A DNA stretch of 64,000 nt, from positions 4,492,832 through 4,556,831 of the forward strand of contig OX465114.1 in NCBI GenBank assembly GCA_949987565.1, read 5' to 3'. The position numbers were made by a program, and so were the translations under genes. Each line of letters begins with the position of its first letter. The stretch's first letter is position 1. The notes under the pieces were generated by a model that worked only from the letters and a program-made list of their open reading frames with translations, was not told the DNA's origin and searched no databases. This document shows, piece by piece, positions 2,292-51,712 of this stretch. Source of the DNA: Luidia sarsii (taxonomy: Eukaryota > Echinodermata > Asteroidea > Paxillosida > Luidiidae).

Positions 2292-3028
2292 TAGCTTTTC
2301 CGCTTCGCGGCGGAAAAGCTAACTAGAGATTTATGTCTGTTGGCAAACAGAACATAACGCTTTTCCGCATCTGGTTCTCTTAAAATTTCGAGACGATTGA
2401 CCGTAGGCAAATATGTGTTTCAAAAACACGCATTATGATGACGTCACGATTGGTCATGGCATTTTGGCCCCGGAGGGTGTTTCTAAACTACATCCCCAAT
2501 AGATATTAACGAAAAAATGAAAAAAATCTCGCTCCGTTGGCCAAATATGCGCAATTGAATGTGAAAATCTGAAAAGTTTATGACCTCATTAATATTCATG
2601 AGATGACGTCACGATCAAATGAGGGCAATTTTTGGATACACCTTTTCCCAACTTAGATATACTGCAAAATTGAAACCAAACTAAATTGTACTTTTGCTTT
2701 TATTGGAGTTTGAAATTTGCCCCTTTAAAGCGCTGTCACATGACACGTGATGATATCATGAAGTTTTGAAGACAACTGTGCACAACTTCAACATGGGCTC
2801 TATGCATTTGCCAAGTTTGAAAAAAATCCACGTGTGTTCAATGGCAGAAATGCCGTCCACAAAAACCATGTGCTTTGTCTATGGGAATTTTTGACACAAG
2901 AAAAAGAAGAAGAAGAAAAAAAAAATCTTAACAAGAACAATAGCTTTTCCGCTTCGCGGCGGAAAAGCTAAAAAAAAACATAACAACAACAATACCTTTT
3001 CCGCTTCACTGAAGCGTGCGGAAAAGCT
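2292..3028. repeat. Three hairpins with TAGCTTTTCCGC stems
   Basis: Near-perfect 12-bp stems (TAGCTTTTCCGC / GCGGAAAAGCTA) with a 6-nt loop occur at 2,292-2,321 and 2,941-2,970. A variant with a longer inner hairpin lies at 2,994-3,028. They follow the A/G-rich tails of the repeat copies, so they probably mark an element end. A hairpin followed by CTAA recalls a Helitron 3' end, but the spacing is wrong for a firm call. Confidence 0.55.
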
Positions 3029-3061
3029 AAAAATCAAACCGCCGCGAATCACTTTTAAAAA

Positions 3062-3313
3062 AAAATCGTCAGGAACTTGTTGAGTAATCAGCACCAGGCA
3101 CATCTTATATCATGAATACAAAATTTACCAATTGTATTACCAAATCAAGATTTAATGAAATTGATTATTTATACGGCCACTAGGGCCTATTACTTTCAAT
3201 TAGGTCTTTTAAAATACATGCACTGTATATAATTATACACACGGTTGGCCAAATTTATGTTTTTTCTTTGATGCCAAGCCTTCAATTCTTCTACTGCAGC
3301 AAAACTTTCATAG
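3062..3313. other. No recognisable feature
   Basis: AT-rich sequence with no coding potential or repeat structure that I can identify. Confidence 0.5.
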
Positions 3314-4022
3314 TATAAAGCTCTCGTCCTTCCTAAATTGGAATATGCTGTTCCTGCCTGGCTCCCTCAAACTAAGAAGCAGGTCGATGATTTGGAGAAA
3401 GTACAAAGGCGTGCCACCCGCTTTATCCTGGGTCAGAAGCGTGGTGACATGAGTTACTGTGATAGGTTGGAATCTCTTGGTTGGTCTAAATTATCTGTTC
3501 GTCGTGACTTTGCTGTTCTATCATTTGTATGTTAGTGTCTGTTTGATATTGTTGAATGTAATGAATGTATTAACAATGTGAGTATTAATTCCCGCCATGT
3601 TAATGATGTAGTGTTTATCCACCGTCAAGCTAGGACCCAATCCCTGCATTTATCTTGTTTCCATGTTTTCCCTTGACTCTGGTCTAATCTGTCTGAAAAT
3701 ATTTGGAATGGTATGTTTTACAGCCCTTTTCATCTTTTCTTGCTACTCTTAGGAACCATATTCTCTCCTCTTAATCTATCCAACTATTCACTGTGACCTT
3801 TTTCAATTAAGCAATATTTTTTTCAAATAATTATTTTTATATTAATTTATACTTATTTATTTATTTTATTTATATTAATTTACTTCATAGTTTTTATTTG
3901 CAGCTCGATGCGGAGTGACAGGTCTCTGGCCACAGCAATTGTTTTTGCTTTTGTCTCTCCCTTGCTCAACTTGTATGTGTTGTAAATTGAATAGCATGAA
4001 TAAAATAATAATAATAATAATT
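3314..4022 (+). mobile_element. 5'-truncated LINE 3' end (reverse transcriptase C-terminus)
   Basis: The + frame from about 3,314 to 3,535 encodes the region after the RT palm that is common in CR1/Jockey-type non-LTR elements: LEYAVPAW, then LEKVQRRATRFILG, then a SYCDRLESLGW-like block. A stop follows at 3,533-3,535, and weakly related sequence continues in other frames. The fragment ends in an (AATA)n-type microsatellite at about 4,000-4,022, the usual 3' tail of such LINEs. Everything 5' of the C-terminus is missing, as expected for truncated target-primed insertion. The clade is not certain. Confidence 0.75.
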
Positions 4023-4082
4023 TGGTGAGCTTTGTGACAAAATTTTGGCTGGCGTCTAGTGATTAAATCCAGTTCTTAGCGT

Positions 4083-4215
4083 GTTTTCACGTATTTAGTG
4101 TGTTTTCCGGTATTTAGAGTTTTCCGGTGTTTTCTGGTATTTAGTGTGTTTTGTGGTATGTAGTGTATTTTCCGGTATTTTCCGGTAGTATTCCGGTATT
4201 TTCCGGTATTTAGTA
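4083..4215. repeat. Short degenerate minisatellite
   Basis: Imperfect repeats built from TTTTCCGGTATTTAGTGTG-like blocks. Confidence 0.7.
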
Positions 4216-4512
4216 CTACCCTCATTTTGGCTTGTCGGACGGGAGAGAATCTTCTCGATAACCTGAGGGAAAAAACGTGAGTAAAACAAAAGACCAGTAT
4301 TGAAATCGATGATTCTCACTTAATCCAAAGATGGGTTCGTTGGACGGTTTCACGGGTGTTTTCAGGGTAAAATCTGGGGTAGTTATAGAGTCGAACACAT
4401 ACCGATAGTTAGTTTGACAGGATTCCGAGCAGCTTTTCTTGGACCCTACATCGCGCGAAGTTACTCTAGGTTGAGCGAGGTCAAAGAATATCATCCATAC
4501 ATTGTCTGATCC
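4216..4512. mobile_element. Partial arm of the Mutator-like foldback family
   Basis: This segment matches the inner arm of the foldback element at 7,135-7,990: GAGAATCTTCTCGAT, then TGATTCTCACT, then CGGGTGTTTTC and ATCTGGGG in the same order. It ends where the 128-bp palindrome begins. Confidence 0.6.
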
Positions 4513-4640
4513 TAGTCCGAGTAACTTGGACCCGACAAGTCACCCTTTTTTTATCGAATTTTGAAATTTTGAGGTTCGAACCTCAAAATTTCAAAATTTA
4601 ATAAAAAAAGTGACTTGTCGGGTCCAAGTTACTCGGACTA
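4513..4640. mobile_element. 128-bp palindromic MITE, Mutator-like family
   Basis: A near-perfect inverted repeat with about 64-bp arms starting TAGTCCGAGTAACTTGGACC and centred on GGTTCGAACC. GTCTGATCC occurs immediately to the left (4,504-4,512) and again at 4,649-4,657 after 8 extra bases, consistent with a 9-bp target duplication. Long terminal inverted repeats plus a 9-bp duplication point to the Mutator superfamily. It carries no coding sequence. Confidence 0.75.
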
Positions 4641-4688
4641 CCCCGGTAGTCTGATCCAACATAATGCATGTAAACTACCGGTAATAGT

Positions 4689-4745
4689 TGCGGTAACCGT
4701 AACCCTCATCCTCCTGAAGGTTGGAGACCTGAGGGTTACCGACCG
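4689..4745. repeat. Hairpin
   Basis: A 17-19 bp imperfect stem, GCGGTAACC...ACCCTCA pairing with TGAGGGTTACCGACCGC. Its function is unknown. Confidence 0.55.
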
Positions 4746-5065
4746 CTATGTACAAAATTAGACCTAGGTTCGTGTTTTTACCATTTTTGAAACATCACTG
4801 TCCCGATCGCCCCCTTTTTCCACCCTTTTGAAAATCGCCAGACACAATCTAAGGACGTGGACTTGATCCCAAATGTATACTGAATGTGATCAGATAACTC
4901 AAAACATAGTGGGTAAAATATTTTTCCGAAAAACGGGCAGAAACTCGCCCAAATACTGTCTGAAAACGTCCTGTCAACGTCTCTGCCAGGTTCGGAATCT
5001 GGCCCTGGCGCCTTGACCAATCAGCGTTTAGTCTCGTGACGTATATCCCGCACGACGGCTATTTG
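4746..5065. other. No recognisable feature
   Basis: No coding sequence or repeat recognised. Confidence 0.45.
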
Positions 5066-5142
5066 CTGTTTTGCAATAACAGTCCACACACATGGCGCGC
5101 GCAGATCATCGCCCTGTGAAGAGCTGGCTTGTACATGTACAT

Positions 5143-6609
5143 GTATATCGTGGAAACCCCAGTTTTCGACGGTACGCGTTTTTGACACTTGGCCTTCTAA
5201 CTCACATCGCACGATGAAAACAACTCCGTATCACGATCTCAGACTTCGTATCTTCCGGTTTGTTTCCTGCTCTTTGTCCGTCACCGAAAATGTGGGAAAG
5301 TTAAGGCTCTTCCAGTAGGCCAAACTCGTGTGATTCAAAAAGTTGCTCTTTTGGGGTCTATTTTCCTATGTACAAAATTGGCAGTTGCTTCGTAGCTCCA
5401 GTTTTCTTTATTTTTGGTCCTAAAAAAAATCTGAGTGTACCATAACAAACCCCAACATCCGTAGAAAAAATATACTTCACGCAACTTGAGGCAGTCCGTT
5501 CTGGGTAAAAACTATGGATGCTCCTAAAGGGCGTCTCGCTTATATAATTTTTAATTTTTTAAAATTATTATTTAAAGGCATAAAGTAACATGGCCTAATA
5601 GGCTTTAAAAAAATAAATAATAAAGGGCAGCTAGAGAAAGTACCAAGAAGGAGGAAATGTGTCTCTGGAGTGACATTGGGAAAGGTCATAACTGAAGAAG
5701 CAGTGAGAAAGAGGATTGTGGAGTTTTTTTAAACGTCACAGAAGAAGATATCAACCAGATAAAAAGTACAACCCCACCAAAAGGGCAAATAAAACAGAAT
5801 CTGCTTCCATGGCTGAATCACAATTAGCTTGGACCAAGCCGAACTATCACATCCTGCCTCGATGTATCTTCTGATGTGGAAATTAACAAGGATGAGAAAT
5901 GCTGTGTGTGTCACTCATATATTCCGCGGTACCGTATTTCACCTCTATGGTTTACTTGAAGATCCAAATTCAAAAAAGTTAAAAGATATCTTTCAGTTAA
6001 ATGAACTTCTTTTCACATTTTAAGAAAATTATTCTCAATTTGAATTATTCATTATGGTAATTCAATTTATTTCCTTATTATTATGAGGACAGTTTTGATG
6101 ATTTGGAAAAGGATGGAATTGAAAAGGAGAGGGTAGCATGAAGGGACTAGGATTTGATGGGTGGCTCAGGGCAATTGGACACAATTAATGCAAACCAATA
6201 AGTTTTTATCATAAATTATGAATGTTTTGAGGAAAGTGTTAGAAGCAGTGTTGAAAAAAACACACCAAAAGATGAACAAAAAAACATACACCTGGGGAAG
6301 AATTTTACAGTGCCACACATCATTTGAGTTATTTTAAGAATTTAATTTGTGTTTGGCTGCACTGGGACACCTTACTTAACACCACCGTCAAAAATAGGTG
6401 ACGGTGCTTACTGCGCGGTGCGCCGTGGACATCAACAAAACCGGGTAATCTTACGGAAATGACAGGCTTGATCAACATTCTACATGATTATTCTAATAGT
6501 TTGTGATGTGGACAAAGTGACTGAGAGCTCTGTTAGTGTGATACTTTCGTTCACATTGGTCAGCTTGAAGAAAAGGCCTTATATCGTCGAAAACCGGTAA
6601 TTGGAGGAT
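5143..6609 (+). mobile_element. 1.45-kb DNA transposon copy A, possibly a pogo/Tigger deletion derivative
   Basis: This segment and 25,098-26,523 (inverted) are diverged copies of one element. Imperfect terminal inverted repeats read CAGTTTTCGACGGTA on the left and, in complement, CCGGTTTTCGACGATA on the right. Around 5,640-5,940 there are broken traces of a basic tail (GKVITEEAVRKRI) and a cysteine cluster (DEKCCVCHSYIP). That arrangement resembles the C-terminal tail of pogo/Tigger-type DDE transposases. The catalytic core is absent, so this would be an internal-deletion derivative. The family call is tentative; the two-copy structure is clear. Confidence 0.55.
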
Positions 6610-6614
6610 ACAAC

Positions 6615-6945
6615 ACGTGCCCTGTACATGTACATGTGATGTACAGTACATGTGCAAGCATAATGCGTGTACATCTACATGTACATACACATGTACATGT
6701 ACTGTACACGTAGTATACTACAGTACAGTGTACAGTACATACATGTAACGTACGTGTACACAATACGTGTACATGTACAGTACAAGAACCTTTACACTAC
6801 GTACACACACGTACATGTACATGTATATCTACATGTACATGTATATGTACATAAATGTACATGTGCTGTTGTATACTATGTTTACATGTACAGTGCATTA
6901 TGCTTGCACATGTACATGTACACTGTACAGAGCATTCATGTATAT
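6615..6945. repeat. TGTACA-rich palindromic tract
   Basis: A dense array of TGTACA/ACATGT palindromes. GTGCAAGCATAATGC at about 6,650 is the reverse complement of the sequence near 6,890-6,910, so the whole tract can fold as one large hairpin. Open frames across it are composition artefacts. Confidence 0.75.
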
Positions 6946-7134
6946 AGTACAAGTCGGCTCTTCACAGGGCGATGACCTGCGCGCGCCACGTGTGTGGACT
7001 GTTATTGCGAAATAAATGATTTCTAGTTTTACTCTTTTCTCCTAAAATACCGTACAGCATTTTACTTTAGCCTATAGGCAGAAATATTTCAGTGCAAGGT
7101 TTCTACCATAACCATCTTCAAACTTAGTCCGAGT

Positions 7135-7990
7135 AACTTGGACCCGACAAGGGTCAGGTCACTCGGGTGACTGTGAACGGGCCAAGCCCACTACCACTAG
7201 TAATAGTATGTGAAGCGCTTGAATTTAAACTTTGAAAACTACCCCCGACCGAAATCCCCAGATTTACCCCCCTAAAAAAACACCTGTGAAACCGTTCCAT
7301 GCGCCCATTTTGGATTTAGTGAGAATCACAGATTCCAATACTTTTGTTTTACTCACGTTTGGGAAAAAGGGAAAAAATTCACCCTCAGTTGATCGAGAAG
7401 ATGTCTCTCCCGTCCAATGATTAAAATGCAGCGCCCATCTTTAATTTCGAACTGAACACGCAACTGCTACATGCAAATTGATGACATAATGACAGGTTCG
7501 GGTGTGCAGTGGGTCCTGTGAATGTGTGCACGAGCATGCACGTGTTGAGCTGAGCCCCGCAACTGTTTCCTGAACAGCGCAGCTGCATGGACAGTCACAA
7601 TTAAATTTGTTTCTTCAGAAACCCAACTTCGTTTTTCAGAGTAATTTCTCTTATTACAAATTCACCTTGTGAGTTGTGAGAGACATCTTCTCGATCAACT
7701 GAGGGGAAGTTTCTCCTTTTTTCCCAAGGCTGAGTATTTGACCAGTATTGGAATCTGTGATTCTCACTGAATCCAAAAGTGGGTGCATGGGACAGTTTTA
7801 CGGGTGTTTTCGGTATAAATCTGGGGATTTCTGTTGGGGTTAATCAAAGTCTTCCAAAGTATATGTTCAAAAGTTCAACCATTTCACCTACTACTATACT
7901 ACATTTCTAGGACCCTACAGTCGCCCAACCCCTCCAAAATTTCAAAAAGGGCGGCTTCACCGACTTGTAAGGTCCTAGTTACTCGAACTA
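7135..7990. mobile_element. Foldback element, Mutator-like family, 856 bp
   Basis: Ends read TAGTCCGAGTAACTTGGACC and, in complement, a diverged version at 7,960-7,990. The inner arms 7,240-7,420 and 7,678-7,838 are also inverted copies of each other (ATCCCCAGATTTA vs TAAATCTGGGGAT; TGATCGAGAAGATGTCTC vs GAGACATCTTCTCGATCA). The element is therefore a long-armed foldback with a unique centre of about 250 bp. No transposase is present. The immediate 9-bp flanks do not match, so one end may be displaced. Confidence 0.65.
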
Positions 7991-8198
7991 GCAAATTTTA
8001 CTGTAAATGTACTGGTACCACCGAGAACACTGCTTGAAATTCTGAAAAGGACTTGGTTGGCAAGGACTGGTACTCCATCTCGGGAGGAAATGACTCAACT
8101 ACAGCACTATTTACTTTGTGCCAACTTTGATCTACATGTATTTTTTGTTTACATGTTTTTAATGTTTTTTAACATGGTTTTCTGTCTCTTTCCATCAG
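7991..8198. other. NUDC intron 1, 3' part
   Basis: Sequence upstream of the first recognised NUDC exon, ending in a pyrimidine tract and CAG acceptor at 8,198. No exon 1 (start codon and N-terminal helix) was found anywhere upstream in the window. Confidence 0.5.
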
Positions 8199-8276
8199 CT
8201 TATCAGCACATTTTTCTCCTTCTTGAGGAGGAAGACTGATTTTTACCATGGTGCTCAAAAAGGACAAGCTGAAAAG
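8199..8276 (+). CDS. NUDC: NUDC exon 2 (first recognised)
   Basis: Phase 0 at both ends. It encodes [15 protein letters not shown] plus a GAQKGQAEK stretch. The acceptor is TCCATCAG and the donor is GTACAC. Confidence 0.92.
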
Positions 8277-11200
8277 GTACACGCATACTGTGACGTACAT
8301 TGTTCAAACAATGAAAGTGTAAACATTGGTAAAGGAATAATTTGAAGTCAGTCATTTTCCCATTGCATTAAGATGGCACTATACAATTTATCAACAATGT
8401 AATGTTTTTATATTTGTATAGCATATCATTGATGCCTTTAAGGAGCAACAGCAGATTGCTTTTGAAGACAAACTCAAGAGGGATGAGGAGTCAGCAGCAG
8501 CTAAAAAAGCTAAAGAAGAGCGTGAGATAAAAAAGCGACTGGAGAAGGAAGCCAAGATGAAAGCTGCAATGGATGCAGAGGAGCCCAAGATCAGGGAGAT
8601 TACAGATGAAGAAGCTGACAGGCTTCAGGCTGAAAGCAAGGTAAAGAAATGTACTTGTAATAGTACTGTTCTGCACCATGATAGTGAAATCGTAAGACAC
8701 TAATGTCTTACCCATTGATTCATGATGCATTTCAGCAGCATTGCTTGTTTACTGATTGAAAACCACCTTCCATGTGGGTGCGTGACTGGGCATGCTAAGA
8801 GCCCGTAAAATGATCTTAGCCAATAACTTTGTACTTGTATGTATTTTGTAGCATTGACTTTTTGAAGTGATTTCTTAACCACTTCGCGCTGGGACCTCCA
8901 AAATCGGGGTGACATTGGTTTTACTATGCACCACTATTGTCCAAATTTTAAACGACTCTTTTCAGCTTAGAACAAATCAATACGAAGCATGACAAAGACC
9001 CACTTTGACGCAAGTTGTGAGATTAGCGGCAACAATTGTGCTATTGTGGGACCTTTACTGTGGAAGATCAAGGGATAACACGCTGCCACAGGAAACATTG
9101 TGTTGGCATGTCCCACAGCCCAACGCTCATTAGTCAGGCAGCGGACTTCCACCCACATTCTTCACCGCAATCTGTACGCTCAGTTGGGGCCGACCAACTC
9201 TAATTTGACTGCCTGGAGTGGAGGCTAGTCTGCGGTCAGGGACTATCAGTATCAGTACACACACACATGCATGCACAAGTTGCACTATGGCATGCTCCAT
9301 CAACGATGCACAATGGGACCTTTTTTGAACGGATAATCTCTTGACAAAAGCCACACCAATGTCCGAATTGTGCCAGGTTTTACTCTCTTGTACACATAGT
9401 ACACCCTTATTGACTTATTTCACAGATATATATTGTTCCCGATTGTTTTAGCGAGTTTTAAAAATGACGCATTGTTAAAAAAACCTGTATGGCGGTCATG
9501 GGCACTGGAAAAATTCCCGGCACAAAGTGGTTAAGCTTTTCAAGGTACCAGTGAACTAATGGATATGTGACCGTTTTGCACACAACCCTGTAGATGGACT
9601 AAACCCATTGATTAAGGCCTCCGGCCACCCTATTTTTTACCGGTAATTCATAACAAAGGTCATAGGTTCCTATAAATCGGTGAAACCCAAAGTGAAACCC
9701 TGTGTTGTGCGATGCAAAACTCAGTGTTTTTTGGTGATGTAACCACTCCACTGATGCCCGAGACTTTTGCGGAATGATATGATATGAATATGAAGCATGC
9801 TCCCCGGAGACTGCTGACAAAAGTGGTAAACACTACTCAGGGCTCGATTTACCCGGGTGAACGCATGCACCAGTGCACGTACATGTAGGTTTTTGCTTGT
9901 GCACATAGCTTTTTTTCAGCATGCACGACGTGCATGTAACTTTTTAACCACTAGAATACTCATTTTTAAGTGAGACTGAAAATAAAATTTGTTGAATACT
10001 TGACCAGATAGTACAAGCATGGACAAGTGTCTTATTTCTTTTATATCAAATTAAAACCCATACTTATAATTATTAATCACATCAGATTCAGAATATATAC
10101 ACGCCGCGACGATGGCGTCGTCACGTCATACATGTACAGGTACATGTACATGTATGTACATGTACTACCTGTACATGTACTGTACATGTATGATAGTATT
10201 GTACAGTACACAGAGACCTACAGTGCTATTACACATGCTACACACAGTACACTATTAGAATGAGCAAGCCCTTTACGTGAGTACGTGATGTCATTGTGGC
10301 TCTTCACAAATGCCCAATTGTATGTACCCCTATATAGGACATAATTGGGGTTATAGAAATAAAATAATATATATAATATATATTATAATATATATAATAT
10401 ATATATATTATAATATAAATAATAATATAATATATATATAATAGTTCACTCAGCGTTCAAAATAAGCTGTGTCGCATCGATAAGTGCATTGCCAATGCCA
10501 GGGATTTTCTTTCGTTTTTTACTCGCCGGCGGGACTATAGTAAAGCAGAATTTGTGTATTTCGACCACCGGGCATACCCTGTAAACATTGTTCAAATTGG
10601 TCGATATTACTCTCAAATTCAGGGGAATAACATTACGCTTTCACTTTCACCGGTAGAAAGTGGAAGGGTCAAGCCGTTACCTTTGGGTTGTTTATTGGAC
10701 GCATGCCAGCGTGGTTGGCCTGGTAACATGGATAACTTCAGCAGGTACACTACAGACAAATGTACCACGTGGCTGCTTCCCGAGTCCCCGATTTCAACGC
10801 CTGCAGTCCCCGATTCAAACACCCGCAATCGCTAGAGCCAACAGCTAGCACAAATAGCCGTGTCGGTCCCAAATCCCACTCAAAACTCGAACCCAACACT
10901 GTCCCGAATCCTGAGCACTACTCAAGCCCCACGTGGTCCCGGATGCCACGCAATACCCCGAGACGTAAGTGGTCCCGAATCCCAGGCAACACCCCAGCCC
11001 AGTCCCACGCGGTCCCGAATCAAAAGCAATAGCACATTACCACTCATTTCTTAGACCCGGAATCATCAACCCCCCCCCCCCCTGCGGTACCACCGTAGAC
11101 CGTACCAGAGCTGGAGCCGGTTCTCAGCAATGAGAGCCTGAGCTGGACCCAACGCTCGGTCCCGGAATCGCCGCCCCCCCCCCCCCCCCCAAAAAAATGG

Positions 11201-14200
11201 AACCGACGCTACCCGATTCCTGAGCTAGGCCCGACGCTCGGTCCCGGAATCGCCGCCCCCCCCCCCCAAAAAAAATGGAACCGACGCTACCCGACTCCTG
11301 AGCTGGACCCGACGCTCGGTCCCGGAATCGCCCCCCCCAGTGATGGAACCGATGCTACCCGTCTACATCGTGCATGTAGTATGATGCATCAGAACACGGG
11401 TCACATGACGTGATGAATATTTTTGTACTTAAAGGGCCAAGTCAAATCGTCATCACCACGTGGTTTGCAAAGTGAGGCTAGTTAGGGCTTGATTGGTCGT
11501 GTACTCGGACTAAATTACACAAGCTTGGGAGACTTACTCGCTGCTCTGCTCGTTGCCACATCGTGCTGTACATGTACAGTACATGTATTGCATACACGAT
11601 ACATACGTACTGTTCAAACGGGATGTCTGTCTATTGTGTACGTTAGCACAGCTAATACATGTAGTGCCCATGTTTCGTTACGTGCGGACTGAACAAGTAC
11701 AAATGTTATTCATATTTGGGGCAAGGCCACTGCGTTCGTTGAGTGAGTGTCGAGTACAGAAAAAGGAACCGGCGCCTGTGAAGTGGGAACTGTCAAAGGT
11801 ACCCAATTCCTCAAAAAAGTGGAACCGCGGTTCCGGTTCCAATTTTGGAACCGCGGTTCCACTCAGAACCGGGAGAACCGCCCAAGCCTGTTGCCCATTG
11901 AACAGTACTGTATCTGAATTAGAATGCCCGCTACCAACCAGCCAATGTGCCCTGACCCTGTTGGCTAAACTGCGTCCTTCTTACCTGCCTACACTGAGCT
12001 AAGCTTTGGTACTTTATCTCTCCACTGGGTTCACCCCCCTTATCTCTCTAAGTGGACTGGTTCCCCCCCCCTTATCTCGCCACTGGGGTCCCCCCCCCTT
12101 ATCTTCACTGAGTTCAACCCCTTATCTCACTAAGTTTGCCCCCTATCTCTGCACTGGGTTCCCCTCCCATTATCTCTCCACTGGGTTCACCCCCTTAACT
12201 CTCCACTGGGTTCCCCCTTATCTCTCCACTGGGTTAGGCCCCCTTATCTTGCCACTGGGTTCCCTCCCCTTATCTTTCCACTGGGTTCACCACCCCTCTT
12301 ATCTCTCAACTGGGTTAACCCCCTTATTTCTCCCCTGGGTTTGCCCCTCCCTTATCTCTCCACTGGGTTCACCCCCCCCCTTATCTCAACACTGGGTTCC
12401 CGACTTCCCCCTCTATCTCTCCACTAGGTTCCCCCTAATCTCTCCACTGGGTTTTCCCCCTTATCTCTCCACTTGGTTTGTCCCCTTATCCCTGACCCTA
12501 TGGACATATGTGACCCGCTCTGGCAAAACCCCACGCTTGTCGGCATTTCCCATTCAGCGCTACGCACACAAAAGGTCAAAAAATCGATTGTGGGACCAAA
12601 TTGAAAATTTTGTAGATTTAAAACCGAAAACTATCCAAGATTCATCACAGAAAATATTTAGTCAGAAATATGTCTGCAAATGTTGAAAAATCAGGTTTTT
12701 TTTAGACGTACTTCACTCCCGGTTGTTCCTCTTGGACGAGCAAAAACAACGAAAATACGAAGATTTTCACCGTTTTTCTTAACTCGCTTACTCAATACGT
12801 CTGCGTTTATCCCCAACGAATTTGGCATGTGAGCAAACGTAAGACCACCAGCTGTCCATATAAGGTAAGTATGGGCTGGTCCCTTTCCTCTTATTCGCAG
12901 TAAACATCATAGAACACGTCAGTCATTTCCCTCGTTGCCGCTCTCCTGTGAGTAAACAAAGCGGTTGCTAATCACGTGACATAAATTCAACAATCCCATT
13001 GGCGCACTCGGCCGAGGCCTTCAGGATTTGTTGACATCCGGGTTCCGTTTAGACTGTTTCCCTTACCGCGACTCCGCGTTATCATATGCTGTGCGTTCAA
13101 GAACCAGACTACACAATTTGCGTTGCAGGATCCGCTCTCGTTTCGCGAGTCGTACTGTGTTTCTGTGATTCGTTTAACTCAAAAGATTCCCGCGATAATA
13201 AGCTTTAAATGTCAGAGAAGAGTAATTCCAACAGTAGAATTATAGCTTCATTGCTGAACGATGTAACTGCCTGCGGGATGGAGCTAAAAGGCGTTGAAAA
13301 CGTTTTCGCCGACTACTTCGCTGTTCCAGGTGGAGAAGTGGATAGTGACGATGAATTCGCTGACGATGACAGCGAATCCAAAGAAAGCGTTCATGGTAAG
13401 TACAAAAACCACAATTAAAATTCAATTTCCTCTGTAAATTTGAGCATCATAGGAAAACTAGCTTTGATAACTCAATTGTGTATCGATAAATATACTTAGG
13501 GAGTGGATGGGAGTGCATTCCATTCCCCACCCCTAAAAAAACCTGGCTCTTTCTTTGTCCGAGTAACTTGGACCCGACAAGTCACGTTTTTTTTATCAAA
13601 TTTTGAAATTTTGAGGGACGGGTGACTGTAGGGTCCAAGGATCGGGGCTATGTATTGTACTATTTTTTGTAGAGTTACCCGTCCCTCAAAATTTCAAAAT
13701 TTGATAAAAAGGGTGACTTGTCGGGTCCAAGTTACTCGGACTAGCTCTTTCTGAATTCTCTTTGCTCTGATCCAAGGCCTGAATAGTAAAATTACGGTTT
13801 AGTTTTAGGGTTTTTAACACGGTCAAGGCCTGAGAGTTACTCTCTTTTTTTTTGCTTTCTGTAAATTACATGAACAAGGGAATGTTTTTGTGAAAAGGGT
13901 ATACAGTGTGTTCCGTTTGTTTATTCTTTTCGTCTTTGACTTTGATGGTTTTGCTATCTTCCCATGGTAGGACGACTGACAAACGCATAGTTCCCTGTCT
14001 CAAAATAGATTGATTTTTATCAGGTCTTGATTATGCTTATCAATCATCAGATGAAGATGTTGCTGGAGCTGGACCATCGTCCCTGCCAAGTTCATCTGAT
14101 GAAGACAGTGACGAACAATCTTCACTGTCTTCATCAGACTCAGAGGAGCCTATGTCCCTTGAAGACGAAGCTAGAACAGTCATCGATGATCATGTCGATG

Positions 14201-17200
14201 ATGCCGAAGATGAAACAGAGGCTGCTGCGGTTGCAGCACGGACACTTGTCGACCTAGAACCTCCCAAGGATAAGGTCAACAAGTGTCACTGCACACTGTT
14301 TGATGGCCGGCGCTGCATCGAACAGTTCACCGCTGCCGAGTCAAACGAAATAAGGTATGTATATTTTCCCAACGCAGTGGTTAAGGCAGTTTCATATTTA
14401 ACTGTTTTCTCCTTTCCTTTTATATTGATATAGATACACAGTGGCGGAGTTAACTGAGTTCGAAAAAGATCTGCTGTTGCTGGGAATTATTTCCACATCG
14501 CTCAATGATGGCAGAACAACAGCAAGAACCAAGAAGAAAGACTTTGATCGGAAGAAGACCCGCATGAGAAGTTTCCATTACGGGCAGAAGAGGGTGTGTC
14601 GTTACACCTTTTTCTTCCTGATGGGAATTGGACCCGATAAGTTCACCAATTTGAAGCGGTGGTACGAGACCCACGGACTTGTTCCCAGAAGGAAAAAGTC
14701 AGGTAAAGTTGTTTTTATCAATTGATGTATTTTATTGTTAAGTTATTAGGAGGTAGTCCAAGGACATTGATACTTGACCTCATGTAGACAAATGGGTACA
14801 CGCAGCAATCAAACAACTTTTGCTGGACTTCAAGGCCTTGTATTGTCCACTTTTGAGACCGTGTAAAGTATACGTAGATAAATGAAATTATTAATTTTCT
14901 AGAACATGGTGTTCATTTTTTACTGAATTGCAGGTGGACGGCGTGGAAAGAAGCTGATGAAGCTCGAGCAAATTCAAGCAGTTGTACGATTTATCGTAAA
15001 CTTCAGTGCACACCACTGCATCCTCCTTCCAGGACGAATAGCTGGTGTGAAGTCAGCTGACATCAAACTTCTGCCCACCCATATCACTAAGGCAGAGATA
15101 TGGCGCCTGTACCGAAAGTCAAATCCAGCAGAAGGAGCTGTCGCCCTGTCAACGTTCCGGAAACTCTGGAATGACCTGCTTCCGTACATTGTTGTTGCCA
15201 GGCCTTCAACTGACCTGTGTTGGACTTGCCAGAGGAACAACAGCTTAATAATGAAGCAGGTACTGTTGTGTCTTTGATTTCTAGAGCATAAAGAACGGTG
15301 TTTACTTGTGTAACTTCCAAACAAGCTGCCCACTTTAAGACGTCTGTACTAGAGCTGCCTGAAATATTCATATCAAGCACCGGGCAAAGCACTGAGCATT
15401 CAGTGTTTATCACGTCGAGTAAGGGCAAAACCTCATTGAATTACATTTTCCTCGATGCAAACATCATGATATTATATCTATGATGCAACGCGGTACCCAC
15501 CGCTAGCTATACGCCGCTATACGACCGCAACCAGCTCGGTGGTTAAGACGTCCGTACTAGAAATCGGGAGTCACGGGTTCGAATCCCGCCCGAGCTGCCT
15601 GAAATATTTATATCAAGCACCGGGCAAAGCACTGAATACTCAGTGTTTATCACGTCGAGCAAGGGCAAAACCTCATTGAATTTCTTCCCACTTTAATTGT
15701 TATTTTTGGTTTAATTTGCCTTTCTTTGCCTCCAGGTGAATGTTCCAGAGGGGGAAAAAAGTGCGGCCCTGCAGCGACAACAGGAGCACCTAAAGTTAGC
15801 CCAAATGGAGAGGGATGCCTACAATGCTGCATGTCAGAAGGCCAAGTCCATTGGTGCCACCAAGTTGGGCAAAAATGTCGCAAACTCCAAGCCCATAACT
15901 TTCCACTACAGCTTTGATTTTGCACAGCAGCTCCATTACCCAGCAGACCCCCATCAACCCGGACCTATTTATTTTAAGACACCCCGCAAGTGCCACATTT
16001 TTGGTGTTGTTGCGGAAGGGTTGCCTGCTCAAGTAAATTACTTGGCAGATGAAGGGGTGAGCTGTGGTAAGGGAGCTAACGTCGTTATCAGCTATGTCCA
16101 TCACTTTCTGGAAAGTTATGGGCTCGGAGAGCAGCATGCTCATTTTCATGCTGACAACTGCAGCGGGCAAAATAAAAATAACGCCATGCTGCAGTATTTG
16201 TCTTGGCGTGTGTTCACTGACCAACACAAGTCAATCACACTGTCCTTTCTACCGGTAGGGCACACCAAATTTGCACCGGATTGGTGTTTTGGCCTTCTGA
16301 AGAAGAAATACCGGAGAACCTTTGTTTCTTCTTTGCAAGAGATCTCTGATATGGTGACTCTATCGACTGTGCAGGGCATCAATATTCCTCAGTTGGTGGG
16401 TAGTCAATCGGGGGAAGTGTTTGTGCCAGTTTATGACTGGGTAAGTCATCTGTCTAAGCACTACAGGAGGTTTCCTGGTGTGAAATCGTACCAACACTTC
16501 AGTGTGCGCGAGGACAACCCTGGTACGATTTCATATCAGGAGGACTCAAGTAGTTCAGTGAAGACATTTGATTTGTCCCGCTCAGTACCACCATCAACAC
16601 TGCCTCCAATCATTCCACCACCTGGAATTGATGTCACTCGCAGACAGTACCTATTCGAACAAATCAGAGAGTTCTGCAAAGAAGAAACAAAGGACTTGGT
16701 CTGTCCAAAACCAGAAGTCTGATTTGCAAAAGCTAAAACAAGTGTAGATGTAGAAATGAAAATTGGCCAAACTTCCACTTCGTTACACAAAGGCAACTCA
16801 TTTGCATAATTAGTTTGCATAATTTGACATTTTGAATTTTAACGAAGGTAAATATACATAGGGTAACATACTAGGTGACCCTCCTAGGTTTCTCAATCTC
16901 ATATCACAATTTGAAATCGTTGAGGACCGATCGACCGAAATGTTAATTGGTTAAACTTCCACTTTGTTACAAAAGGCAACTCATTTGATTATTAATTTGC
17001 ATAATTAATTTGACATTTTGAATTCTAACGAAGGTTAATATACATAGATAACCCTCCTAGGTGTCTCAATCCCATATCACAATTTGAAATCGTTGAGGAC
17101 CGGTCGTCCGAAATGTTAATTGGCCAAACTTCCACTTTGTTACACAAAGACAACTCATTTGCATAATTAATTTACATAATTAATTGGACATTTTGAATTG

Positions 17201-20200
17201 TAATGAGGGTTAATATACATAGGTAACCCTCCTAGGTGTCTCAATCCCATATCACAATTTGAAATAAAATAATTGCAGAAATGCAGTGTGATAGAAAGCA
17301 CCACTTGAGTAATGTCTTTTCTTGAGTAATTTCTTTTGTTTTTAATTGTTTTGTAATTAGCATATCATGAATAAATTAAGTCCAAAGTCACTAATTTTGC
17401 TGACCCCTAAATTTCTTTAAGTGTACTTAATAACAGTGATAAGTTTCAAGACCCACGTTATTTCAGTTAATTTGGTTGCTAAGGAGTTTATATGCGGTGA
17501 GCAATTTTAATTTAAAACAAAAAATGGTTGTTAACTTTAAACACTGTTTTCTCCATTTCAACATTTCTGTCCATAATGTCATTAAAATATCATAACTTTT
17601 TCATAATTAATCCGATTGTTATGAAATATACCTTAAATGAAAGCTTAAACTCCACTCATTACAATGATATCAAAATCTCTGAATTGAATTTTGACCCCAA
17701 GTGTTGGGTTTTGCTGGAGCTGGTCACATATACATACTGCATTTGCGACCATGCATATATGTACAGTGTACTGGTACTTATCTCTCCACTGGGTTCCCCC
17801 TTATCTCTCCACTGGGTTTGCCTCCCCTTATCTATCCACTGGGTTCATCCCCTTATTTCTCAACTGGGTTCACCCCCCCCTCCCACCCTTCTCTCACCAC
17901 TGGGTTAGTGCCCCTTATCTCTCCACTTGGTTTGTGTCCTTATTCCTGACCCTATGGACATGTACATACTGCATGTGCGACCATGCATACAGTGTACTGG
18001 TGTACTGGTACTTACATGTATATATTGTACAGTGTACAAGCATCAATCCACATGTCCAGTATGCAAGGCCAGAGTACACCTGTACTACGCATATGTTACA
18101 ACGCATCTTGTTCCACACTAGACAATTATAGGAGTCTTGAGTAGTCTCTGTGGGTGGGACTTCCTGTCTTGCACTCTCTATGATGGGACCACTCAAGCCA
18201 TTGAGGTCTGCATGTGAAAAAGTGGCTTCTAGTAGCAGGAGTTTGTCTGTATTTTTGGTTGGAAAAAATGCATTACAAGTACAACCATGTTGGAAAATTT
18301 GAAACAATTATTTGAAATGGACGAAAATTAGTACTTGATGATCACTCAAGTATTCGGCACAGCTCTACCCAATTGCTTACTATTCCACATCTTCAAGCAA
18401 ATAATGAATACCTTTCTCCCCTACAGAGTGAAACACCATCTGACACAAATGGAACTGCAGTTGAAATGGACAAAACAGCAGTAAAAAAAGTGAGCTAATT
18501 CTTTCAATAAATTACGATAATGTTCATATCGGTACAAATGATTCTTTTAGTCTTGCAAGCCTGGTGCATTTTTTTTTTAGTATTGTAAAAGGAGGCAAAT
18601 ACAGTCGACTCCCGTTATAATGCGGTCCGTCGGCCTGTCGCAATTCCCTTGTTATAACCAGAGCGCAGTTATTCCCATTGGTTATGCACAGCTGACATTG
18701 ATCATTGTATGGCACATGTTTCTGTGTGTATTGCAATCATGTAATGTACGGTATGTCCAGAGTCAAGCCAATGCAATGTAGATTATTTCATATTATTTTG
18801 GTATGCACATGCTGGTGAATAAAAAAAATTAAAAAAAATGAAAGTATTTTGGACAACCTTAATCCGGACACGATGGAAACTTCGATGAGAAGGACCATAC
18901 GATCTTGTAAATCCGTCACTCACACTCATTGTGCCGATTGACAAGTCTTGAATCAGTCAAGAGAGGGCGCCCCAATTATACTACCAAATTATTATTCTGT
19001 GGATTTCAAACTTGTTGAGGAGCATTTACCAGGAGCAGTTATGCCTCAATTGTTTGGTATTGTAACGCGTTACAGTATTAATTGATATGGAGTAAATTTT
19101 CCATGCACTCATTATCCCCTGAACACCCCATTGTCTGAAACCGCAAGGGGATTTGTGACTTTGCAGATGTTTGTGATTTATGATGTCCCTTCTGCCCCAC
19201 CGTACACTCGGTCATATTATCGGCGAGATGAAACAACGTTCACGCGAAACCACAGCACTGTGCATGCATGCGACCTTGAAAGACATGATTCCTGGTATTT
19301 GACACGCCACGGCACCCATAGTTTACAAAAGAAGTCATTTTAAATTATTTAAAACTTGGCTTTGATCGTGTTCAGTCAGGCAAAATGCTCGTTAAATCCG
19401 GAGTCTGATAATGTGCATGCTCGTTATACACTAATTTTCTCCCATACAAATGTGCACAAATAGATTGGGACTTTGAAAATATGCTCGTTATAACCGAATT
19501 GTTGTTATAACAGTTTGTTTTAAACGGAGTTGTCTAACTTTCTCATACTAAGCAAAACATGGGATATGCAAAATCTTTCAAGAAAATGGTTTTGTGTCAA
19601 AAGTTTAAATTTGTTTGGACTGACAAATGTACCTACATGTACACATACACCTGTACATGTATGTGCATTAATGTAATCTATTTGCAAGAAATAATACAGG
19701 TCTTTTTGATCAACTCTGATCTAATAACTAAAATAAGAAAAACAAAACACTAGGCATTATTTTACTGAATCTCTATTTTAAAGGAGTTTTACCAAACTTA
19801 CAGATTGAGTTATGGTTGCTGTGGTTACCCTTGTAGGATAAGGGTGATGATGATGATGATGATGAAGAGGATAAATCCAAACTTAAACCGAATGATGGAA
19901 ATGGTGCTGATTATCCCAACTACAGATTCACACAGACTCTCAGTGAGCTAGAGGTGAGTTAGTGTATTACATATCTTTAAAAAAGATCAGAAATCTTCAT
20001 GGCTTTGTGATCAAACTTCTTGTTGCACACAAACAGGTATGCAGCCACTACCATCGCTAGTAAAGGAGTTATGGGGAATTTTAGTACCCACTCAAGATCC
20101 GCAAATCATCTTGGTCTTTATGGGTATTAATCAATGACCAAACTATGACCTGTACTGGACAACAGAATAGAAAACAGAAGCACCAAGTAGCCTATCCAAA

Positions 20201-45541: not shown

Positions 45542-47354
45542 TACCCTTTTCCCACTACAAACTGCTTAACCCCGAGATTTGCCGCCCCGGGTTTAGCATT
45601 CTGTACCCCGGGGTTCGTTAACCCTGAGTTCTGTTCCCATTTGTCGCGTTAACCCGGAGTTTCGCAAAACCCGGGGCGAGCTTGCCCCGGGTTAACGATG
45701 TGCGATTTCCCACTACACCCCAACCCCGGTGTCCGTCACTGCCCGGACCGGAAATCCCACTGCGCGCTAGCTGGTCCCACAATGCCTCGTACCGCCTTGC
45801 CAAAATAGGCGCTGAGGGCACCGAATCGTTGTTTTAGGTCTCCTACTAATATATCATCGTTTCTGTGGGACCACAATGCCTGAAAAAGATTATTTTCCAA
45901 CATAAAAATGACGTCTAAAATAGGTTTCAGTCAGCCACCAATACGTATTCTCACGGAACATGAACAGTACCATTCAGGTATGGCCGGGGTGCTACTGCTA
46001 TAGTAAGCGGGACGACAAAAATATCTGACAATAGATCCTCACAAAAAAATCAAAATAAAAGGGATTCTAAAGAGCCTACATGTTTTGTAAAGATGGATTT
46101 TTAAGCAGCTAGGTCCAACCTAAACGAGCATATTATCGGAGCTTATTATTGTATAAACTCGCACCCCTCTCATTCCTAATAGAATAGTCCATGCTGTCAA
46201 GGTATCGCGATGTGTGTTCGGTGTTCCAAAACCTTCTCATCAGTTCTCGTCCAAAAAATTGAGAATAACTACGTTCGTAGGCCTACCTGAAAAAAATAAA
46301 ATAAAGTTTGCGTCATTTTTGTGCTGTATCGTGAAGTAGTAGCTCGTTTTGCTGTTTAGCTTTCTCCTTTCGGGGCATGGTTACGACTTTGAAAAGGCAC
46401 CCGCGAACACGCAAACCTTTGACAGCTCTTCGATTCTACTTTCGCACGCAACCCGACCACGTGCTGCATGCTGCGCAATCTATCTATCGTGCAACGCAAA
46501 TCGCTCCCAACTACCGTTGGTACCCGTTGTTTGGTACAGCCAGCGATGTCCAAGATTCACTGGTACCCGCAGATTAAAAGTTTGTTGACATGAAACTGTC
46601 AGGATCAAACGCACTGTCCATGTACGTATCTGACATGGCCATGTAAGTACTGTACATGTACATGTACAGTACATTGATCGTGTATGTGTACGTGTATACA
46701 TGTACATGTACAGTAGATGCACATGTACTGTACATGTACATGTACACCCATCCACAGTCCATACAGTTGTGCACAGAATGCGCAATGTTTAGCTGACAGT
46801 GCGCACGGTACAGTGAAGCTTCCATGTGTGCTGCACACACACTGCACCGCAGTCGGAATATTATTTCATGCGTGCTGCAGTGTGCTAAAAGGGCACGGCA
46901 ATTTGTTGCCGTGAAAATCCTCCAAATTTAAGGGCACCGCGGCAATTGGTGAGGGCACGTTTGCCGTCGTGAATTTACTGCCCTCTTGTAAATGCCAGAT
47001 GTGCGTCGCATGCGGATTTTCCCGCCACGTATCCCACCTCTGACCGTCCCATTACGTAACGCATCCGGTGTCTTAACCCTGAGAATGTCCATCGGACTCG
47101 TACCCCGGCGCGGTTTCCCACTACAACGCCAACCCCGGGGTTCGGCCGTTACCCCCGAGATTTCCATCCTTAACCCTGGTCGCGAGCAGGGTTAACGAAC
47201 CCCGGGGTAAGGGCCGATTTTTCGGTCTCAACCCGGAGCGGGAAAAGTGTAGTGGGAAACGTCCTGGCAACCATTTCCAACCCGGGGTATCTCGGGGGTA
47301 AGGGTTGCCGTTACCCCCGAGATAACCCGGAGATTGCGTAGTGGGAAAGGGGTA
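45542..47354. mobile_element. 1,813-bp PIF/Harbinger-like non-autonomous element with TAA target duplication
   Basis: Ends read TACCCTTTTCCCACTAC and, in complement, TACCCCTTTCCCACTAC, flanked by TAA at 45,539-45,541 and 47,355-47,357. A 3-bp TAA duplication fits the PIF/Harbinger superfamily. Internal CCCACTAC blocks (about 45,710, 47,110, 47,250) and GTTAACCC/CCGGGG repeats build subterminal structure. No transposase or Myb-like frame was recognised. The centre holds an unrelated-looking segment and a TGTACA hairpin. Confidence 0.82.
46620..46745. repeat. TGTACA-rich palindromic tract inside the Harbinger-like element
   Basis: AGTACTGTACATGTACATGT and further ACATGTAC blocks form overlapping palindromes; the open frames across it on both strands are artefacts. 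Confidence 0.7.
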
Positions 47355-48720
47355 TAAGAAGGATGCATATCCCCTTCCTCGCATCGATGACAGTTTGGAT
47401 GCACTGGCTGGGTCTTGTTGGTTCTCAACATTAGATTTAGCGTCTGGTTACTGGCAGACCGAAGTCAACCCAGAAGACCGCCATAAAACAGCATTCTCTA
47501 CTGGAACTGGCTTGTATAAATTTAATGTTCTTCCTTTTGGGTTGTGTAATGCTCCAAGTACTTTTGAACGACTGATGGAAATCGTCCTTCATGGTCTCCA
47601 CTGGAAGATCTGCCTCATATACCTAGACGATGTCATTATCTATTCAAAGACATTTGACGAGCATATGGAGCGACTTACATTGGTAATCACTGTTTTTGAA
47701 GAGGCTGGTTTAAAATTAAAACCTAAGAAATGTGCTTTAGCTCGTAGGGAAGTCATGTATCTTGGCCATATAGTGTCATCTAATGGGATATCCACTGACC
47801 CAGAAAAAGTTCGGACGGTACAAGAATGGCCTACTCCTTGCAGTCTTTCTGAAGTCCGAAGTTTTCTGGGTCTCTGCTCCTATTACCGCAAGTTTGTAGC
47901 AAGTTTTGCCCACATTGCTTCCCCTCTTCATCAATTTACACAGAAGAACACCCAAGGTGATATACAAAAATGTTGCAAACACCCAGTTCATTTGGTCCGA
48001 TGAGTGCGAGTCTGCCTTCCAGAGGCTAAAGAGAGCTCTCACAACAACTCCAATCTTGGCCTACCCAGATTTGCAGAGCCATTCATTCTCGACACTGATG
48101 CCAGATATAGAGGGATTGGTGCTGTCCTATCACAGGTGCAGGGAGGCAAAGAGAAGGTTACTTGCTATGCAAGCAGATCTCTTAGCAAATCCGAGCGACG
48201 CTATAGTGTCACTCGTAGAGAACTTCTTACTGTTGTCACCTATGTTCGGCACTTCAAGCATTATCTGTACGGACATTGTTTTACCCTTCGCACCGATCAT
48301 GGTTCCTTGAGATGGCTCTACAAATTTAAAGATCCTGGAGGTCAGGTGGCAAGATGGTTAGAGTTCTTAAGTTCTTACCAATTTGATATACTTCATCGTC
48401 CAGGTACCAAACACCTAAATGCAGATGCTACATGTATGTCCAGGTACCCTTCTGAGCAGTGCAGTGCCATACAGATGCCTACAAACTTTAGCTGGGACCG
48501 TGAGGATTTGAGGACGACTCAACTAGCCGACCCACAGCTGGCCCCAATAGTCAGGTGGAAGGAGAGTGGCAACAAACCAGACGTGGCCTCAAGCAGCGGA
48601 GTTGACGGAGACACAAAGGGGTACCTCTTCCAATGGGATCAACTAGAGATGCACCATGGTGTGCTATATATCGACGCTGGAACGATGCAGAAGGTCAGGG
48701 GTCCCGTCTATTGTTGGTAG
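47355..48720 (+). pseudogene. Gypsy pol, RT palm and RNase H
   Basis: RT continues with KKDAYPLPRIDDSLDAL, STLDLASGYWQ, LPFGLCNAPSTFERLM and IYLDDVIIYS, with the YLDD box intact, then LGHIVSSNGI and VRSFLGLCSYYRKFV. A 26-bp insertion at 47,954 and a further shift near 48,068 change frame. RNase H follows with FILDTDARYRGIGAVLSQ, RRELLTVV and LRTDHGSLRW. The usual NADALSR reads NADATCMSR because of a small ACATGTA-type insertion at about 48,430. Confidence 0.9.
47954..47979. repeat. 26-bp insertion flanked by CACCC duplication
   Basis: The 26 bases are identical to 50,470-50,495, at the left edge of the Penelope-like insertion. They are flanked by CACCC at 47,949-47,953 and 47,980-47,984. The net 31-bp gain breaks the pol frame. 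Confidence 0.85.
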
Positions 48721-48746
48721 TTCCCACAACTTGACAATCTGAGGTA

Positions 48747-50063
48747 ATGCAAAGAGCACATGACGGGCTTGGGGGTGGTCATCTTGGAATCACCAAAACA
48801 GTCGAGAAGGTTAAAAACAAATACTTTTGGATAGGGTGTGCTCGTGACATCAAGACATGGGTCCGGAGGTGTCCCAAGTGCCCCGGTAAGAAGTCACAAA
48901 ACCCGAAGTGTCGTGCTGCACTAGTTCTGGCACCAGCAGGAGCCCCTATGGAGAAAGTTGCTATCGACATCATGGGTCCCTTACCCCTATCTTCAAGAGG
49001 AAACCGCTATATATTAGTCGTGGCTGACTATTTTACAAAATGGACTGAGGCTTTCGCTGTGCCCAACCAAGAAGCTGTTACTGTAGCACGTGTTCTTGTG
49101 GAGGGGTTCGTCTGTAGATACGGAGTGCCAGTTGCACTTCATAGTGACCAAGGAGCGAACTTTGAATCGTCTCTCTTCCAAAATATGTGTAGTCTACTGG
49201 GTATCCACAAGACTAGAACAACTGCATACCATCCGCAGTCAGATGGTCTCGTCGAACGCTTTAACAGAACACTGCAAACGATGATCACCATGTATGTCAA
49301 AGAATACCAGACTGATTGGGACGAACATCTGCCCGAAGTAATGATGGCCTACCGAGCGAGTGAACAAGCCTCAACCAAAGCCACTCCCAACTTGTTGATG
49401 TTTGGAAGGGAAGCCAACATACCCCTTGATCTCTTAGCAGGTGATGTCCCTGAAAGTCGACCTGTGAGCACAGATGACTATGCCTATCGACTTTATCACA
49501 AACTTAAAGATGCATATGAAAATGTACGAACCAATTCTAAAGCAGCACAACATCAGAAGCGCCTGTATGACGCCAAGCGCATGGGAACACCATTCCAGGA
49601 AGGTGATTGCGTGTGGCTATACACACAGCAAACTAAGCAAGGAAGGAGCCCTAAGCTGCAAGCTTTCTGGAAGGGCCCCTTCAAGGTCATACAGAAACTG
49701 TCTGATGCCAACTATAAAATTAGACATAAGAGTGGTGGACGGATTCAAATAGTCCATTTTGATTGTCTGAAGCCCTACAATGCACACTCAACACCAGCTC
49801 CAGACGCTACTCCAAGCCGTGGAACGTCACCTTGTCGTGTGGACTACAGGCAGACAGATTCTGACGTAGAAGCCCCCATCTGGAGCCAGCCAGCTGAGGC
49901 TACTTGGATGTACACATCCATGGAGTGTCAATCCAACGAGGATGACATTTGGAGTGATAATTCTTCCCCAAGACTGGCACCCGGGAGTTCTACGAAGACA
50001 ACTAGATATGGGCGAAGACGTAATGCCCCAGTATGGATGAAGACTGGAGATTTTGAACTGTAG
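48747..50063 (+). CDS. Gypsy integrase with C-terminal domain, 438 codons open
   Basis: Zinc-binding HHCC region (AHDGLGGGHLG ... CPKC), then the DDE core: VAIDIMGPLP (Asp 1), ALHSDQGANFES (Asp 2) and TAYHPQSDGLVERFNRTLQ (Glu). A GPY/F-type C-terminal module follows (GDCVWLY, FWKGPFKVIQKL). All catalytic residues are present and no stop is seen. The join to RNase H is broken: a frameshift near 48,710 and a TGA just upstream separate them. Integrase inserts the cDNA into host DNA; here it is part of a defective element. Confidence 0.9.
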   Translation: MQRAHDGLGGGHLGITKTVEKVKNKYFWIGCARDIKTWVRRCPKCPGKKSQNPKCRAALVLAPAGAPMEKVAIDIMGPLPLSSRGNRYILVVADYFTKWTEAFAVPNQEAVTVARVLVEGFVCRYGVPVALHSDQGANFESSLFQNMCSLLGIHKTRTTAYHPQSDGLVERFNRTLQTMITMYVKEYQTDWDEHLPEVMMAYRASEQASTKATPNLLMFGREANIPLDLLAGDVPESRPVSTDDYAYRLYHKLKDAYENVRTNSKAAQHQKRLYDAKRMGTPFQEGDCVWLYTQQTKQGRSPKLQAFWKGPFKVIQKLSDANYKIRHKSGGRIQIVHFDCLKPYNAHSTPAPDATPSRGTSPCRVDYRQTDSDVEAPIWSQPAEATWMYTSMECQSNEDDIWSDNSSPRLAPGSSTKTTRYGRRRNAPVWMKTGDFEL

Positions 50064-50853: not shown

Positions 50854-51693
50854 TTAGTCATTACCCTCCTGGATGTTGAGACCATGTGGTTGAATAGTCC
50901 GAAGACGCTTCATCCACATTTTCTCACGGCTAAGACGGACAGCATTATTACGGTGACCAAGTGATTCTATGCCCAGTACACTCATGTCTGATATCGAATG
51001 ATCAGGGAGATTGAAGTGATACCCAACAGGGGTGTCCATTTTACCGGTTTTGATAGTAGACCTATGGCCATAGATTCGTTTTTTGAGGGTGTTTTTGGTC
51101 TCGCCAACATACTGAATATTACAAACTCTACAAGAGATGAGGTATATGATGTTTGAGGTAGTGCACGTGATAGAGCCATAGGTCGTGTGGGTAGTTCCAG
51201 AAGAATGTCCATTGAAAGAGTCTATTTCCTTGACATGTGTCTTGCAAACAATGCATTTCGAGGTACACTTAAATGTACCAAATTTGGTTGGAGGTGAAGA
51301 GTCCAAAGGGGGAACCTCTGCTCGGACAATTAAGTCACGCAGGTTACGGGGGCGCCTGAAAGCCAAAACAGGCGAATTAGGAATGGCTTCAGCCAGACGA
51401 TCCGAAGTGTGGAGAATATGGTGGTTTTCCTTAGTTATCTTCCTGAGAGGAGGAAGAGAGGGGTGGTAGGAAGTAACTAAGGGAACCTTGGGCTTGTCCT
51501 TAGGACCTGGTGGCTTTTGTTTTAGTGCCGAACTTCTGGGAATGGAATAGACTTTAGCAATGGAGTTCTTCACTTGGCGAGAACTATAGCCTCTAGCAAC
51601 CAAGTTACTGGCCAATACACGTGTATGGCGGCGAAAGTCAGACTCATTGGAACATATACGCCTCAATCTGAGGGCCTGGCTGTAAGCTATAGC
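50854..51693 (-). pseudogene. Penelope-like C-terminal region with GIY-YIG nuclease (left copy)
   Basis: The frame is open but 5'-truncated: no RT is present. It reads RLRRICSNESDFRRHTRVL, FRRPRNLRDLIVRAEVPP, a Cys cluster FKCTSKCIVCKTH, then the GIY-YIG domain SNIIYLISCRVCNIQYVGET followed by LKKRIYGHRS, and ends ...[10 protein letters not shown]. The nuclease nicks the target for primed reverse transcription in this class. The reading frame continues past 51,693 only because it runs into the inverted copy. Confidence 0.85.
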
Positions 51694-51712
51694 CATTCCT
51701 AATTCGCCTGTT

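Follow-up and report, generated by a model that had tools for sequence, protein, structure and literature searches.

Among described mobile elements, the closest counterparts of the one reported here belong to the Sola superfamily, whose members encode a transposase with three aspartates (DDD), make 4-bp target site duplications, are mostly 2–9 kb long, and occur in bacteria and metazoans (PMC10741241). In slime mould Sola2, the duplications are AT-rich and of the form AWWT, for example ATAT, AAAT, and ATTT (PMC3627910). The stretch examined here (the window) comprises 64,000 nucleotides of the sea star Luidia sarsii (assembly GCA_949987565.1, contig OX465114.1, positions 4,492,832–4,556,831), in which a five-exon gene for a DUF7869 protein lies within the NUDC gene. 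The gene very probably encodes the transposase of a DNA transposon (12510–17727) that is complete, looks autonomous, and has inserted in a NUDC intron, and the element probably belongs to the Sola2-like group of the Sola superfamily, where it is placed by published features. The locus has transposon ends, a target duplication, an empty site, an open spliced frame, and a conserved Asp triad, and a related family in the same genome has moved recently.

The element and its target are delimited as follows:

12510–17727, + strand: whole transposon, 5218 bp, from its ends and the empty site
12506–12509, no strand: target site duplication, left copy, ATAT, read from the flank
12510–12539, + strand: left terminal inverted repeat (TIR), with G at position 1 (G1) and AAAA at positions 16–19; identical to the right end at 25 of 30 positions
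17698–17727, − strand: right TIR, AAAA at positions 16–19, from the inverted pair
17728–17731, no strand: target site duplication, right copy, ATAT, read from the flank
17914–18004, + strand: unoccupied copy of the target in the neighboring repeat unit, CCCTATGGAC-ATGT-ACATACTGC, from alignment to the joined flanks

Taking the element's first base as base 1, the end sequences are GTGACCCGCTCTGGCAAAACCCCACGCTTG and GTGACCAGCTCCAGCAAAACCCAACACTTG. The inverted arms (12506–12539 and 17698–17731) are 85% complementary, and a chance origin is rejected: 0 of 200 dinucleotide shuffles produced an inverted match of 29/34 or better between the 2-kb flanks. When the flanks are joined with a single ATAT and compared with the next downstream repeat unit, no gap falls across the site and 82 of 92 columns are identical; the empty unit has ATGT where the flanks of the element have ATAT. 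These observations define an insertion of 5,218 bp that duplicated 4 bp of its target. A 2-bp duplication, conceivable for AT-palindromic flanks, is discarded, since it would require the loss of 2 bp from the empty repeat unit. Inverted ends and an empty site, which the initial annotation had suggested seeking around other copies, are thus both present at the window element itself, and ends are also recognized at four of nine other loci in the same genome. Minisatellite-like arrays with a unit of ~23–27 bp (CTTATCTCTCCACTGGGTTC...) flank the element on both sides (12000–12490 and 17777–17945), and the repeat unit that supplies the empty site contains such arrays.

Between these ends, the predicted five exons with correct splice sites and a single 699-codon frame are confirmed by joining the exons:

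13209–13395, + strand: exon 1 of the transposase, with the start codon, from the spliced reading frame
14024–14354, + strand: exon 2, an acidic region followed by a CxC...C cluster (Cys150/152/160), from the frame and the alignment of relatives
14434–14702, + strand: exon 3, a helical region in the model of a sea urchin relative, from the frame and predicted structure
14934–15259, + strand: exon 4, with invariant Cys358/Cys361, from the frame and the alignment of relatives
15736–16722, + strand: exon 5, with the predicted RNase H core, DUF7869, and the stop codon, from the frame, Pfam, and predicted structure

All four introns are GT–AG, and the joined exons make 700 codons including a single terminal stop, which yields a protein of 699 amino acids. 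The assignment to DUF7869 also held, as Pfam PF25273 matches residues 456–638 (E 1.1e-16) and is the sole Pfam match of the protein at E ≤ 1. The suggestion that spaced Asp residues in the C-terminal part mark an RNase H-fold nuclease is supported by structure prediction and fold search, in which a core with a conserved Asp triad, the putative active site, is predicted:

15916–15918, + strand: codon of Asp432, first putative catalytic Asp, in FDxAQ on strand 1, from prediction and conservation
16153–16155, + strand: codon of Asp511, second putative catalytic Asp, in DNCxGQNKN at the end of strand 4, from prediction and conservation
16279–16281, + strand: codon of Asp553, third putative catalytic Asp, in GHTKFxPD on the helix after strand 5, from prediction and conservation

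The window protein retains all three, as do its relatives, and the third residue is Asp in 246 of 248 sequences, which makes the triad DDD and not DDE (with a terminal Glu). The structural reading is based on VIA-align and strand order; plain Foldseek returned weak matches only, and sequence searches of the PDB gave nothing useful (one match at E 0.11 in the first, none in the second). The best fold match of the predicted core is Tc1/mariner, and the structural alignment to Mos1 shows 9% identity.

The hallmarks of DDE/D cut-and-paste elements are represented here by the predicted RNase H fold with three acidic residues, the TIRs, the duplication with its empty site, and dispersed moved copies, the last in the related family of loci L053 and L056 and not in the window copy. 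We infer the catalytic steps, and the present mobility of the window copy, as follows. The transposase would bind the ~30-bp ends and bring the two together; the Asp432–Asp511–Asp553 active site would excise the element, which would be joined to a target cut with a 4-bp stagger, and repair of the gaps would leave the ATAT/ATAT duplication.

The copy might instead be dead and degenerating, with real ends and a transposase that is no longer made or used; we regard this as quite possible, if somewhat short of probable. Its ends are identical at 25 of 30 positions, and other repeats lie in introns 1 and 4; set against this are 699 codons free of stops and frameshifts, canonical splice sites, the intact Asp residues, and the perfect duplication. 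The repeats within the element are:

13557–13741, no strand: near-perfect hairpin repeat in intron 1, from inverted pairs; similar stretches occur at L050, L054, and L055 of the same genome
15352–15682, no strand: intron-4 repeat, two 91-bp copies, 95% identical and 240 bp apart, from a direct repeat
16753–17265, no strand: about three tandem repeats with a period of ~173–175 bp in the 3′ part of the element, from direct repeats

The intron-1 hairpin is perhaps a multi-copy short element. The intron-4 repeat looks tRNA-like by eye, yet ARAGORN finds no tRNA in it.

At E ≤ 0.001, the 471-Mb assembly yields 72 matches to exon 5; none but the window copy both exceeds 60% identity and spans the whole exon in one piece. 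The initial annotation had held that many broken paralogues, together with neutral dN/dS, would count against its proposal; such paralogues are found in part (66 of the 72 matches extend over less than two-thirds of the query, and 16 contain a stop), which is normal for a transposon family. Nine further loci (L049–L057) were read widely. Ends were recognized at four of these (five of ten with the window) by a search that demanded G1 and AAA at positions 16–18, so that the register is built in, although plain similarity of the ends also picks out L050 and L053. The elements so delimited measure 5,364 bp (L050), 4,707 bp (L051), 5,283 bp (L053), and 5,257 bp (L056). The flanking 4-mers are identical in four of the five elements of this genome (ATAT/ATAT at the window, L050, L053, and L056); those of L051, ACTT/ACTA, do not fit AWWT. 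The L051 element (2993–7699 of that locus) also has a different inner end sequence, and its flanks, ACTACTT and ACTACTG, could represent a duplication that is longer or microsatellite-like.

Across 5,256 aligned columns, two of these elements, L053 (contig C17) and L056 (contig C2), show 10 substitutions in addition to four gap runs, and blastn finds no similarity between their flanks (1.2 to 3.4 kb on each side). Such near-identity on different contigs with dissimilar flanks indicates, on sequence evidence, that a DUF7869 element has transposed very recently in this sea star lineage. The pair represents a related family and not the window copy, the protein being ~45% identical to that of the window, and the L056 frame shifts just upstream of the core. 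L050 changes frame within exons 3 and 5, and deletions and stops disrupt L049 (contig C21), to which the window copy is closest in sequence.

The initial annotation had offered two origins for the gene, a recently active, poorly described DNA element or a host gene domesticated from a transposase. The former is supported by the ends, the 4-bp duplication, the empty site, and the near-identical pair of the related family. Under the latter, the protein would be kept for a host function and the ends would be relics. A single open frame in a genome where many relatives are partial or interrupted would suit such a history, as would the ratio of nonsynonymous to synonymous substitution (dN/dS, omega) against L050: over 669 codons, dN is 0.205, dS 2.34 (saturated), and omega 0.088 (0.092 for exon 5 alone). 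Low ratios among separately inserted elements would, however, also be expected from successive transposition. Against the broken L049, exon 5 gives dS 0.106, dN 0.047, and omega 0.44, and against L053, dS is beyond correction. The pattern fits a transposase under selection through repeated transposition, with broken copies as side-branches; taken alone, dN/dS does not separate a domesticated gene from a mobile one. Domestication is nevertheless set aside as very improbable because the ends, the duplication, and the empty site are present: the gene is still enclosed by transposon ends and by a perfect 4-bp duplication, with no loss of the features of mobility. All three Asp residues are retained, as in relatives, and no sea star appears in the 20 organism-naming rows among the best 120 of 553 protein matches, most rows naming no organism.

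The best database relatives of the window protein come from sea urchins and a crinoid (68–69% identity), and sea urchin, crinoid, priapulid, mollusc, and fish proteins are among the relatives listed. A scan of genome contigs gave 13 bacterial loci, including those of Desulfocicer vacuolatum and Candidatus Thiomargarita nelsonii; in L001–L009, the nine loci whose match takes in most of the protein, the best segments are 30–36% identical to a sea urchin relative (P0001). Inverted ends lie within 1.5 kb at 8 of the 13 loci, and AAAA occupies positions 16–19 in 14 of these 16 ends (L008 differs), the same register as in the ends of the window element. Base 1 was taken by eye as the first G after the AT-rich run (at L004, seven bases outside the detected arm), so G1 and, in part, the preceding T arise by construction, but the AAAA register does not. 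The flanking 4-mers fit A..T in 16 of 16 cases and are the same on both sides only at L003, L007, and L012 (3/8), which is no proof of duplication there. At L001, L004, L006, L008, and L009, they differ between sides by one or two bases, and any duplication may be imperfect, decayed, or absent. The remaining five loci (L002, L005, L010, L011, and L013) have no usable ends, L005 and L013 offering fewer than 130 bases on one side.

All six bacterial locus proteins tested pass the Pfam cut-off for DUF7869. The family looks rare and patchy in bacteria: in one phylum draw it occurs in 1 of 395 genomes, which is the genome the draw was centered on. Among the 120 relatives listed for the L001 protein, many sit on contigs of only ~2.0–2.5 kb, as would often be the case for repeated insertion sequences. 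Among viral contigs, 22 stretches matched the search pattern and none is a relative, and the plasmids and phages searched contain no relatives. One bacterial DUF7869 protein (P0138) is named "chaperonin" in its source record, likely a misannotation.

With Sola2, the window element shares a DDD triad, TIRs, a 4-bp AT-rich duplication of the form AWWT including ATAT, a length of ~5 kb, and occurrence in both bacteria and metazoans (PMC3627910, PMC10741241). The published Dictyostelium and Polysphondylium examples carry Fanzor1. Zator/ISAzo13 is likewise a eukaryote–bacterium pair (PMC10045372), and P0001 has a weak, sub-threshold match to the ISAzo13 family PF07592 around its second and third Asp (18.3 bits, cut-off 26.9); the window protein has no PF07592 match at E ≤ 1. 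The published duplications of this superfamily are 3 bp (PMC10045372), against the empty site and the identical 4-bp flanks in four of five elements, and the PF07592 match of P0001 falls below the cut-off. Tc1/mariner (Mos1, Sleeping Beauty) resembles the window element in DDD/E chemistry and in an RNase H core that is the best fold match, but identity to Mos1 is low, as given above, and its 2-bp TA duplications (PMC10741241, PMC10045372) contrast with the 4 bp that the empty site supports. Kolobok and piggyBac share the 4-bp duplications but are TTAA-specific (PMC9587614), against ATAT here, and the window protein matches no Pfam family other than DUF7869 at E ≤ 1.

A DDD transposon outside Sola, with DUF7869 forming a superfamily of its own that extends from bacterial insertion sequences to animal transposons, seems unlikely. 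None of five proteins tested (four bacterial) reaches an NCBIfam cut-off, the Pfam name is that of a domain of unknown function, DUF7869 is not mentioned in the literature searched, and the pair is absent from the prokaryote–eukaryote list in the excerpted PMC10045372; the sub-threshold ISAzo13 match of P0001 also points outside Sola. The testable Sola2 features (DDD, AWWT with ATAT, length, and presence in bacteria and metazoans) are nevertheless all found. Doubtful, too, is a DUF7869 superfamily with one conserved end layout (AWWT, G1, and AAAA at 16–19) whose autonomous members are still jumping in the sea star. Sola itself is not listed among the pairs in PMC10045372, the word being nowhere in its main text, and no publication combining "sola2" and "gtgac" was found in the literature searched. 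Judged by titles and the openings of abstracts, no paper on the window element is among the 10 of 36 matches listed for insertion sequence surveys or the 10 of 18 listed for Sola in echinoderms, and the DUF7869 family is not among the several DDE families named in the excerpt of PMC4853749.

The element, most likely Sola2-like, is ordinary in kind, but it provides a function and boundaries for DUF7869 and an animal–bacterial tie through both protein and ends. A Pfam domain of unknown function would become a DDD transposase with defined ends and target, and uncharacterized animal and bacterial DUF7869 proteins, such as the "chaperonin" P0138, could be re-read as mobile-element genes. Animal and bacterial elements would form a further transposon pair, with the protein and the register of the ends in common, and a recently mobile, apparently intact element would be a candidate laboratory tool for gene transfer.

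The surrounding NUDC gene was located by tblastn with a human NUDC sequence, which matches on both sides of the transposase gene and on the same strand:

8196–8279 and 8425–8649, + strand: NUDC segments on one side, tblastn
Starts at 19837, 20762, 22408, 22629, and 23172, + strand: NUDC segments on the other side, tblastn

Among NUDC proteins, the highest identities are to the sea stars Asterias rubens (73%) and Acanthaster planci (72%), ahead of a brittle star protein (63%) and one from a sea urchin (62%), as would be expected of a sea star host related closely to neither of the first two. Nesting in NUDC on the same strand, as first annotated, therefore stands; the number "intron 3" is plausible and unproved because the first 26 NUDC residues are unmatched.

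The further claim that almost every other non-NUDC coding stretch in the window is broken was sampled only, by scanning 10 of 32 stop-to-stop frames of at least 150 amino acids against Pfam. Six of the ten match a mobile-element-type family above the cut-off, and one integrase-bearing frame is open for 442 amino acids. Frames with RVT_1 and integrase domains (rve, H2C2) at 47326–50060 (+ strand) represent a long terminal repeat retrotransposon in pieces, Gypsy-like by reading. A frame at 50857–51897 (− strand) has a GIY-YIG endonuclease domain, presumably as in Penelope-like elements, and a C-terminal transposase fragment at 55999–56481 (+ strand) matches Pfam DDE_Tnp_1_7, which we take to be piggyBac-type. 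Exo_endo_phos endonuclease and reverse transcriptase frames at 60264–63233 (+ strand) are probably those of an element like a long interspersed nuclear element (LINE).

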